64,000 nt of DNA from Microbacterium sp. LWH3-1.2. Its GTDB lineage: Bacteria; Actinomycetota; Actinomycetes; Actinomycetales; Microbacteriaceae. The notes under the pieces were generated by a model that saw only the letters and a list, made by a program, of their open reading frames with translations, was not told the origin of the DNA and did not search any database. Position 1 is the first letter of the stretch. Each line of letters begins with the position of its first letter. Below, in pieces: positions 4,358 through 52,659 of the stretch. A program made the position numbers and the translations under genes. Where the stretch lies: assembly GCF_040675855.1 (NCBI RefSeq), contig NZ_JBEGIK010000001.1, positions 744,001 to 808,000 of the forward strand, given 5' to 3'.

Positions 4358-4439
4358 TCCTCAATTGAGGATCTGCGCCGAGATGCGGACCAGAACCGCG
4401 CGAGCCATCCGCATCTCGGCTCTCGTCCTCAATTGAGGA
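4358..4439. repeat. 82-bp nested-palindrome repeat, copy A
   Basis: The element is bounded by two identical 14-bp palindromes, TCCTCAATTGAGGA, at 4358-4371 and 4426-4439. Inside lies a perfect 13-bp inverted repeat, GCCGAGATGCGGA at 4377-4389 and TCCGCATCTCGGC at 4408-4420. Two more copies of the same length and layout lie at 11118 and 11275, on the other side of the zinc operon. This copy sits between the convergent 3' ends of the MFS gene and the zinc operon. No protein is encoded. Its role could be a terminator, a protein-binding site or a small non-autonomous element. Confidence 0.85.
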
Positions 4440-4570
4440 GCGCGAACGGATGCGGGTGAGGAGCGCGAACGGATGCGGGTGAGGGAGCGCGAACGGATGC
4501 GGGTGAGGGAGCGCGAACGGAGGCGGGTGAGGAGCGCGAACGGATGCGGGTGAGGGAGCGCGAACGGATG
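4438..4570. repeat. 23/24-bp tandem repeat, nearly six units
   Basis: Directly abutting repeat copy A is a tandem array with unit GAGCGCGAACGGATGCGGG followed by TGAG, alternating between 23 and 24 bp. Units are almost identical; one has GGAGGC in place of GGATGC. The array ends about 14 bp before the stop codon of the minus-strand propeller gene at 4584. Nothing coding is apparent. Unit number is likely to vary between strains by slippage. Confidence 0.85.
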
Positions 4571-4583
4571 CCTCGCCTCGAGG

Positions 4584-49934: not shown

Positions 49935-50100
49935 TTGCGCGTCGCCCGCCTCGCCGGGCGCTCGCCGGGCCGAGACAAAGGAACTCACCGTCCAAAGAGG
50001 TCTGGACAGAGCGAAACGGGAGGGAGTAGCCTCTCAACTCCAGGCACCCTCACGCACGATCCGTCCGGAACGTGCGGCTCTTTCGTCGTGGGAGGTGAAC

Positions 50101-51084
50101 GTGGAGATCGCAACCTCGCAGCTGCCGAGGATCGTGCGGCTGACCCTCATCGGGGTCGGTACCGCGTTCGCCTGGATCGTCGTCTCGCTGATCCTCGGCC
50201 TCGGTCTCGGACAGGCGCACGCCGAAGAAGCAGACGACTCAGGAGCGCTCGGGGGTGCCCTCGGGGTGGTGACCTCGATGGTCGACGCGACCGCATCGAC
50301 CGTCACCGGTACGGTCTCGACCGTCACGACCGGCGCCGGCGGCGCCGTGAACACAGTCGTCGCCGCGACTCCCGCTCCCGTGCAGCAGCCGGTGAGCCAG
50401 GTCGTGCAGACCGTCGGCACCGTCGTCACGACGGTGACCCGGCCGGTCACTGAGGTCGCCTCGGGCGGTGTCGTGAGCCACATCGCTGCGCCGGTCGTCG
50501 ACATCGTCACCGAGGTGCCGGTCGTCGGCGGGATCGTCTCGGGCACCGGCCTCGATGACGCCGTGACCGACCTCGGCGGCACCGTCGACGACACGCTCGG
50601 CGGGCTCGTCGGAGCTGTCGACGAGACGGGCGCGACCATCGGTCAGCCGCCGGCAACAGGCCCGGGCATCCCCGCTCTTCCGGGGATCCCGCAGCGTCCC
50701 GACCTTCCGGGCAGCTCCGCCGATGCGTCGGCGCCGACCGCGATCGCCCTTCTCGCAGCGCGGACGGATGCTGCCGCCACGCTCTTCTCGACGACCGCGC
50801 GTGGGTTCGGCCCCTGGGCCGCAGCATCCTTCTCCGAAGCGGCCACGCGTGCCGCCCTCGTCGTCTCGTCCGCCGCGCTCGTCGCTGGCGGGCTCCTCGG
50901 TTCTGCAGGCGCACTCTGCCTGTCGATCTCTTCCGCGGGACCCGGTGGTGCGGGTCCCGGCGCCTGGGCGCTCGCTGCCCTCCTTCCGCTCGCCGCGCAC
51001 CGTGCCTGGGTGCGGCGCCGCGGGCCGGAGGACGAGCACGCCCCGCCGGCGCCCGCCGGATCCACCGACGTCTCCCCCGACTGA
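50101..51084 (+). CDS. secreted Val/Thr-rich hydrophobic surface protein
   Basis: A 327-residue protein of unknown function. It has an N-terminal signal segment (VGTAFAWIVVSLILGLGLG, cut near AHAEE), a long Val/Thr/Gly-rich low-complexity region (about 50-180) in which VV/TV pairs recur at short intervals, a Pro-rich linker (about 195-220) and a hydrophobic C terminus (about 265-300) before a basic tail. That last segment could anchor it in the membrane. GTG at 50101 follows GGGAGG by five bases. It sits 117 bp upstream of the chaplin-like wall protein, same strand, so the two may work together at the surface. Confidence 0.72.
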   Translation: MEIATSQLPRIVRLTLIGVGTAFAWIVVSLILGLGLGQAHAEEADDSGALGGALGVVTSMVDATASTVTGTVSTVTTGAGGAVNTVVAATPAPVQQPVSQVVQTVGTVVTTVTRPVTEVASGGVVSHIAAPVVDIVTEVPVVGGIVSGTGLDDAVTDLGGTVDDTLGGLVGAVDETGATIGQPPATGPGIPALPGIPQRPDLPGSSADASAPTAIALLAARTDAAATLFSTTARGFGPWAAASFSEAATRAALVVSSAALVAGGLLGSAGALCLSISSAGPGGAGPGAWALAALLPLAAHRAWVRRRGPEDEHAPPAPAGSTDVSPD

Positions 51085-51201
51085 TCGGCTCGCCGCCACC
51101 CAGCTCACCCGAGCTCGGGCGGCAGAGCATCAGCGCGTTCGCGCTGAACAGCGCGACTCCTTCCCGCGCTGAGAACCGATCAATCCATAAAGGGGAACAT
51201 C

Positions 51202-52659
51202 ATGCGCACTTTCTACAAGCGCGCCCTCTGGGGCACGCTCTTGGCCGGCGGCATCACTCTGCTCGGCGCGACGGTCGCCAACGCGGCCGAGACCACCGGT
51301 GACGACGGGCTGCTCTCGGGCAGCCAGGCCGTCATCGACGTCACCGTCCCGGTCACGGCCAGCGGGACGTCGCTCTCCGTCCTCGGCGACTCCTCGTCGA
51401 GCGGCCCGACCACGGCCGCCGCCGCTCCGGCACCGGCTCCGGCCGCGTCCACGTCGGGCGCCGGCGGCGTCGGCTCGGGCTCGCAGGCTCTCGTATCGGT
51501 GAACGTCCCGATCACGGTCAGCGGCAACTCCGTCGCGGTCGTCGGCGACAGTTCGTCGACGGATGCTGCGACCGCCGCACCGGCACCCGCCCCGGCTCCT
51601 GGCGCTGAGACATCGGGTCAGGACGGCCTGCTCTCCGGCACGCAGGGGGTCGTCTCGGCCGCCGCACCGGTGACCGTGTCGAACAACGCGATCTCGGTCG
51701 TCGGCGACAGCTCGAGCGAGGGCGCGACCACCGCACCCGCGGGCACGGGCTCCTCCCCGGCGGCCGACGCCTGGACGGGCGGCGAGGACTCGCTCCTCGG
51801 CGGCACCCAGGTGCTCGCGCCCGTCACCGCGCCGGTCACCGTCTCGGGCAGCGCGATCTCCGTCATCGGAGACAGTGCGTCCACGGACGCTGACACCACC
51901 GCTCCCGCGGCCGGCTCGACGATCGGCGGCACGACGGGCACGACGGACGGCGGGGACTCGGTCCTCGGCGGCACCCAGGTGCTCGCCCCCGTCGCCGCCC
52001 CGATCACCGCGGTCGGCAACGCCGTCTCCGTGATCGGCGACAGCTCGAGCGACGGCGCCGCCACGGCTCCCGCGACCGGGTCCGCCGGCGACGACGCCTG
52101 GACCCACGGCGGGGACTCGGTCCTCGGCGGTACCCAGGTGCTCGCACCGATCGCTGTGCCCGTCACGGTGGTCGGCAACGCGATCTCGGGCGTCGGTGAC
52201 AGCGGATCGGCCGGTGTCGTCGCTTCGCCGGGATCCGGCACGGGCGGGACCGTCGGGAGCACGGTCGGCTCGGGCTCGATCCTCGGCGGGACGCAGATCC
52301 TCGCGCCGATCTCGCTGCCCATCACCCTCGGCGGCAATGCGATCTCGGTGATCGGCGACAGCACCACGGGGAACGCGGTGCCGTCCGGCCCGACCGACCC
52401 GACCGACCCGACGGACCCCACGGACCCGACCGACCCCACGGACCCCACCACCCCGGGGGACAACGGCACGCCCGGTGGCACCGGCACCGACGCACCGACT
52501 CCCTCGGCGGTCGCGACGACCGGGTCGGCGGCTTCGGCCGGCACCGCCACTCAGCTCGCCGCGACGGGAGGGACGGGTGTGATGCCGTTCCTGCTGCTCG
52601 GGCTCTCGCTGTTCGCAGCGGGCGCCATCGCACGCGCGTCGCGGCGGCGCTCCGCGTGA
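51202..52659 (+). CDS. chaplin-like seven-repeat wall-anchored protein with LAxTG signal
   Basis: A 485-residue exported protein: signal peptide (about 1-29), then seven repeats of about 53-56 residues, each holding a SGTQxVxxPVxVxGNxxSVxGDSSS-like core (GDS at 62, 115, 168, 223, 279, 332, 385). The cores resemble chaplin domains (V-x-V-P-V-x-V-x-G-N-x-V-x-V-x-G) but lack Cys. A TDP repeat (about 398-416) spans the wall. It ends with LAATG (452-456), a hydrophobic helix and RRRS, which fits a class E sortase substrate, as in Streptomyces long chaplins. ATG follows GGGGAA by four bases. Confidence 0.75.
   Translation: MRTFYKRALWGTLLAGGITLLGATVANAAETTGDDGLLSGSQAVIDVTVPVTASGTSLSVLGDSSSSGPTTAAAAPAPAPAASTSGAGGVGSGSQALVSVNVPITVSGNSVAVVGDSSSTDAATAAPAPAPAPGAETSGQDGLLSGTQGVVSAAAPVTVSNNAISVVGDSSSEGATTAPAGTGSSPAADAWTGGEDSLLGGTQVLAPVTAPVTVSGSAISVIGDSASTDADTTAPAAGSTIGGTTGTTDGGDSVLGGTQVLAPVAAPITAVGNAVSVIGDSSSDGAATAPATGSAGDDAWTHGGDSVLGGTQVLAPIAVPVTVVGNAISGVGDSGSAGVVASPGSGTGGTVGSTVGSGSILGGTQILAPISLPITLGGNAISVIGDSTTGNAVPSGPTDPTDPTDPTDPTDPTDPTTPGDNGTPGGTGTDAPTPSAVATTGSAASAGTATQLAATGGTGVMPFLLLGLSLFAAGAIARASRRRSA

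Follow-up and report, generated by a model that had tools for sequence, protein, structure and literature searches.

Organization of the chp locus

The window analyzed here, a stretch of 64,000 nucleotides from Microbacterium sp. LWH3-1.2 (contig NZ_JBEGIK010000001.1, positions 744,001 to 808,000), contains chp, a gene for a repeat-bearing wall protein (CHP), preceded on the same strand by a gene for a secreted protein, UP. In our best reading this is a modular surface-protein locus, the commonest cargo of which is a Cys-free chaplin array. The parts of CHP, in window coordinates, are as follows.

51202..52659, plus strand: CHP, chaplin-repeat wall protein of 485 amino acids (ATG start; open reading frame call and PF03777 match)
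51202..51285, plus strand: leader of CHP, the signal peptide of residues 1-28, with the pattern M-x5-R-x-L-x6-GG-x4-G-x3-A-x-A (cleavage site placed by eye)
51313..51405, plus strand: core of repeat 1, 31 amino acids (this and the other cores from repeat and profile alignment)
51472..51564, plus strand: core of repeat 2
51631..51723, plus strand: core of repeat 3
51796..51888, plus strand: core of repeat 4
51964..52056, plus strand: core of repeat 5
52123..52215, plus strand: core of repeat 6
52282..52374, plus strand: core of repeat 7
52381..52453, plus strand: TDP spacer (tandem array)
52555..52569, plus strand: LAATG sorting motif, residues 452-456 (translation; motif also in relatives)
52579..52656, plus strand: C-terminal membrane helix and Arg-rich tail, RRR (helix 460-484 in the structure model; translation)

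The original prediction, made from the letters of the DNA, had described a Cys-free protein with seven repeats of 53-56 residues, a TDP spacer, an LAATG signal and an anchor. The repeat cores start 53, 53, 55, 56, 53 and 53 residues apart and share a mean pairwise identity of 55% over their 31 residues. The repeat set is beyond chance: in residues 29-395 the best seven-member set reaches 62% mean identity, whereas none of 100 shuffles of the region exceeds 32%. Spacing and shuffle test thus bear out the repeats, and the spacer, LAATG and anchor are all present in the tandem array, the translation and the model helix. CHP contains no Cys at all; its composition is biased (V/T/G/S-rich). LAATG, the membrane helix and the RRR tail are the anchor features of long chaplins.

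Chaplin homology of the repeats

The likeness of the repeats to chaplin domains was confirmed by profile searches. PF03777 (ChpA-C) matches CHP as a whole with 54.2 bits over six stretches (cut-off 21), and an independent profile, made from 29 chaplin domains out of 30 Streptomyces-type loci (a label inferred, among other signs, from the domain sequences), matches it with 44.7 bits over seven stretches. With the second profile all seven repeats stop aligning at position 46; therefore the first part of the chaplin domain, VxVPVxVxGNxVxVxG, is retained and the LLNPAFGNTC end is lost, and with it the second Cys, while the first Cys is substituted. The canonical chaplin domain has two conserved Cys residues, with ChpE as a domain without them; CHP has neither these two Cys nor a complete domain ending in LLNPAFGN(T)C. 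Judged by sequence, its repeats are chaplin homologues, shortened and Cys-free. In another family of the same class, locus L253 encodes a protein with the same core; seven of its eight repeats contain two Cys, as counted by eye. L253 and L254, both from other families of the class, encode multi-repeat chaplin proteins with Cys in the repeats and are possible intermediates in chaplin evolution.

A V/T/G/S-rich protein might merely resemble chaplins through convergent low-complexity similarity, and both the biased composition of CHP and the marginal scores of its repeats taken one by one are in keeping with this. However, the controls score far lower against the Streptomyces-type profile: of 1000 shuffles, 997 of them scored, the best reached 7.4 bits, the reversed CHP gave -40.1, and the best of the 338 other open reading frames of the window gave 7.7 bits. 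The register is moreover identical in all seven repeats, and Cys-bearing intermediates exist. We consider convergence very improbable.

Distribution among relatives

Microbacterium is not mycelial, which agrees with the earlier description of the host as a non-Streptomyces, non-mycelial lineage. CHP had also been presented as unusual in this lineage, and here the original prediction failed, since a whole-protein profile finds matches in 94 of 299 genomes of the family. PF03777 matches are found in 22/58 genomes (20/35 within the genus, the window's own genome counted), in 66/299 genomes of the family and, at E<=1e-4, in 86/394 genomes of the class. A protein search returned 261 relatives of CHP, and at least 16 of the 120 listed already bear a chaplin name (NCBI or UniRef). 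A chaplin-like protein has been reported in the non-sporulating Arthrobacter chlorophenolicus (PMC4255298). Given this wide distribution, the existing names and the Arthrobacter report, CHP is known in kind. The first reading was good on the protein but mistook a common family for a rarity, and it mentioned neither the partner gene nor the conserved leader; what looks new is this setting of the chp gene, not the kind of protein.

Relatives were compared in 81 loci, namely the window and 80 named ones that are the best 80 of 139, nearer relatives being favoured. One of the two patterns used to scan for loci was a leader peptide, so that leader counts in the 81 lean upwards and partner counts are unaffected. 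The repeats are Cys-free in 78/81 loci, and their number varies from 3 to 11 among the 76 complete ones. A sorting motif, LAxTG or LPxTG, is present in 73 of the 76 complete relatives (LAxTG in 71). These repeat and motif counts include L158 and L178, in which the gene is split over two open frames (L178 with a masked run), and L142, L171 and L207, which have no sorting motif.

The class E sortase

A single sortase match was found in the genome; it scores 104.4 bits with PF04203 and lies some 54 kb past chp, at G000:C1:850616-851302. It belongs to class E (NF033747, 236.3 bits, cut-off 160), and its best solved match is SrtE1 (5cuw, E 7.7e-27), with which the His, Cys and Arg stretches align; we take these His, Cys and Arg residues to be catalytic. 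The class E sortase expected by the original prediction was thus found. Class E sortases occur in 269/299 family genomes, however, and are therefore near universal in the family, so that presence or co-occurrence is weak evidence. Chaplin similarity by profile and a class E sortase gene, the two things whose absence had been named as counting against the earlier reading, are both there.

A partner gene and a shared leader

The genes that flank the pair in same-genus loci are ones we take, from recognition of their translations, to be dnaB on one side and rplI on the other (rpsR, ssb and rpsF, mentioned below, were named in the same way). The partner gene and the region between it and chp have these features.

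50095..51084, plus strand: UP, partner, secreted V/T/A/P-rich protein of 329 amino acids with C-terminal DVSPD (GTG start chosen from relatives)
51025..51081, plus strand: conserved C-terminal tail of UP, PEDEHAPPAPAGSTDVSPD (comparison of loci)
51092..51123, plus strand: hairpin, GCCGCC/GGCGGC in the window (alignment; window register read by eye)

UP lies between dnaB and chp. It begins with a signal sequence, is V/T/A/P-rich in its middle part and ends in a tail of the DVSPD type, for which the consensus is DDxLPxSPVxDTDVSPD. An open reading frame with such a tail stands directly upstream of chp in 79/81 loci, 73 of which fit the strict pattern; in the two exceptions, L179 and L182, the end is likewise PD. 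The pattern was drawn from the same-genus loci, of which it matches 18 of 19, and was widened after its first misses had been read, the first version having found 62/81; in its loose form it occurs in 15 of 3653 other open reading frames of at least 150 amino acids. A scan of both strands of the 30 Streptomyces-type loci, each some 3.1 kb long, found no tail of this type. In the family scan chp follows the partner on the same strand in 54 of the 60 genomes with a partner match, and 41 of these 54 pairs have 84-140 nt between the match ends; this count drew on CHP positions from 75 of the 94 genomes with CHP. UP has no Pfam match over the cut-off, and among 31 UP sequences there are weak Pfam and NCBIfam matches only, each in one member.

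The order dnaB, chp, rplI characterizes the same-genus loci: dnaB is near chp in all 19 that have a chaplin match and rplI in 17, with several kb between chp and rplI in some. A twentieth locus, fetched from another family, has neither gene near chp, and across the 81 loci dnaB or rplI appears within the stretch examined in 51.

The leader pattern M-x5-R-x-L-x6-GG-x4-G-x3-AxA is present in 64/81 CHP proteins, or 71 if read loosely; of the 20 loci retrieved through a Pfam match, 14 have it. It occurs once in the window, at CHP; no other frame in 1.17 Mb carries it.

The hairpin directly follows the UP stop codon and has no T-run. Among 15 chosen sequences its helix shows changes on both sides at four of six pairs; in the window one pair is broken in the alignment register, and full pairing is seen by eye in a shifted one. 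It perhaps sets the ratio of the UP and CHP products. Elsewhere in the window, positions 4434-4571 form a tandem array of a 24-base unit in 5.7 copies with 95% matches.

Exchange of the repeat body

In six family genomes the partner is present with no adjacent CHP match. Five of these were read (G271, G106, G321, G097 and G142), G169 being left aside near a contig end, and G607 and G042 were added from the class scan. The gene after the partner in G271, G106, G321, G097, G142 and G607 encodes a secreted protein with another repeat body, mostly Asp-rich; in G042 no secreted repeat-body gene was seen after the partner. The 66 family genomes with PF03777 matches include none of these five, and when the changed bodies from G271, G106 and G607 were searched with PF03777, nothing matched. 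A collagen match in G106 is located in the spacer. The anchors of the changed proteins are LATTG in G271, LPxTG-type in G106 and G321, and LAYTG in G097; none was seen in G607, and the G142 gene is cut by the end of the stretch. This last gene (locus L291), after a partner-type gene, encodes a very long PPAD/PPAE-rich secreted protein with the same kind of leader.

The clearest exchange is in G271, a genome of the same genus, in which the changed gene (L285:5247-6920) occupies the same site as chp, between dnaB and rplI-rpsR-ssb-rpsF, and encodes an Asp-rich repeat body followed by a TDP spacer and the LATTG anchor. Its leader is identical to that of the window CHP in 27 of 31 columns. The leader pattern fits five of the six changed-body proteins, the sixth, G271, having one extra residue; the pattern was written after these six leaders had been seen, so that the five fits are not an independent test.

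Tentatively, the locus may represent a two-part surface-display system of Microbacteriaceae and their kin, with an exchangeable repeat body, most commonly a chaplin array and otherwise often an Asp-rich one, that is served by two constant elements: the leader and a secreted partner whose tail is of the DxSPD type. In such a system the partner, by recognising either the leader or the nascent protein, would direct how the product is exported or assembled.

Proposed function

We propose that CHP crosses the membrane through the Sec pathway by means of its specialised leader, and that it would then be cut at LAATG by the one sortase of the genome, of class E, and linked to the wall. The TDP spacer would hold up the array of seven Cys-free, shortened chaplin modules, and this strand-prone array would most likely coat the cell and change its surface hydrophobicity and attachment; such a coat is more likely than a free rodlet film as in Streptomyces. 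UP, presumably co-expressed and secreted, would act for whichever repeat protein is encoded beside it, probably by helping its export or its assembly on the cell surface. The homology, the anatomy, the sortase gene, the gene pairing and the shared leader were computed directly; the proposal as a whole, a sortase-E-anchored coat that alters surface properties with UP as secreted partner, we hold to be somewhat more probable than not.

Several results weigh against it. Class E sortase is found in 91/94 genomes with a CHP profile match and in 178/205 without one (compared by hand). Single repeats are marginal, a six-frame PF03777 scan giving two places at E<=0.001 (6.7e-4 and 8.5e-4) and none at E<=1e-4. 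The partner profile matches just 55/94 CHP genomes at E 1e-6 (compared by hand); the misses may reflect fast divergence. The structure models are poor for UP (predicted template modelling score, pTM, 0.30) and weak for CHP (predicted local distance difference test score 64.8, pTM 0.56), and Foldseek with the CHP model gave no match at E<=0.001; a second look below significance with this model, whose confidence is low to medium, listed solenoids, CsgA among them. Finally, the beta-moment of the seven CHP cores, 1.02 against a shuffle mean of 0.82 and maximum of 1.19 (2000 shuffles), is no more than modestly raised and is below the 1.44 of the 29 Streptomyces-type domains; taken core by core, the comparison with shuffles falls below 0.05 for one of the seven.

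The last of these results bear on whether CHP works as a chaplin in the way known from Streptomyces, its anchored repeats nucleating amyloid fibrils that form an amphipathic film at the air-water interface. In all seven repeats the domain lacks its final part and its two Cys, no short free chaplin was seen (PF03777 matches of the genome at E<=0.001 are confined to the chp gene), Foldseek gave nothing significant, and amphipathicity is weaker than in the Streptomyces-type domains; we regard such a film as improbable. A passive role, in which the repeats form a stalk or brush without self-assembly and serve spacing, shielding or adhesion only, has more in its favour and is a possible though unlikely alternative: repeat number varies widely among the complete loci, and the chaplin body can be exchanged for other repeat bodies with the same kind of leader and partner, but the core is well conserved across genera, with invariant Gly and Pro columns, beyond the need of a mere spacer. 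The anchored, surface-modifying coat remains our preferred reading.

Comparison with known systems

CHP shares with the long chaplins of Streptomyces (PF03777) the chaplin domain, a signal peptide, an LAxTG-type signal and a class E sortase in the genome. Streptomyces long chaplins have two full domains, whereas CHP has seven shortened ones with neither Cys nor the LLNPAFGNTC end, and no short chaplin was found in its genome. The leader differs too, its strict pattern being absent from all 30 Streptomyces-type loci. Chaplins let Streptomyces hyphae leave water. Attachment may have preceded this role in aerial growth, an idea put forward in the Arthrobacter paper (PMC4255298), and Cys-free, shortened chaplin arrays with wall-anchor signals in single-celled relatives fit that idea. 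Such relatives would be simple hosts for testing it.

CHP is an ordinary member of the group of proteins annotated in Microbacterium, Agromyces, Leifsonia and others as chaplin family protein or DUF320; that annotation does not cover the partner gene or the exchange of the body. The parallel between UP and the Streptomyces rodlins is one of idea, that of a secreted chaplin helper. The constancy of partner and leader suggests a step in the export or assembly of actinobacterial wall proteins that was matched to no described family in this analysis. In Gram-positive cocci, wall proteins with YSIRK-G/S leaders likewise carry a conserved motif within their signal peptides; the CHP leader has another motif, which occurs once per locus, beside the partner gene. 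If the two-part display system proves true, it would be an actinobacterial counterpart of such leader-directed wall-protein placement.
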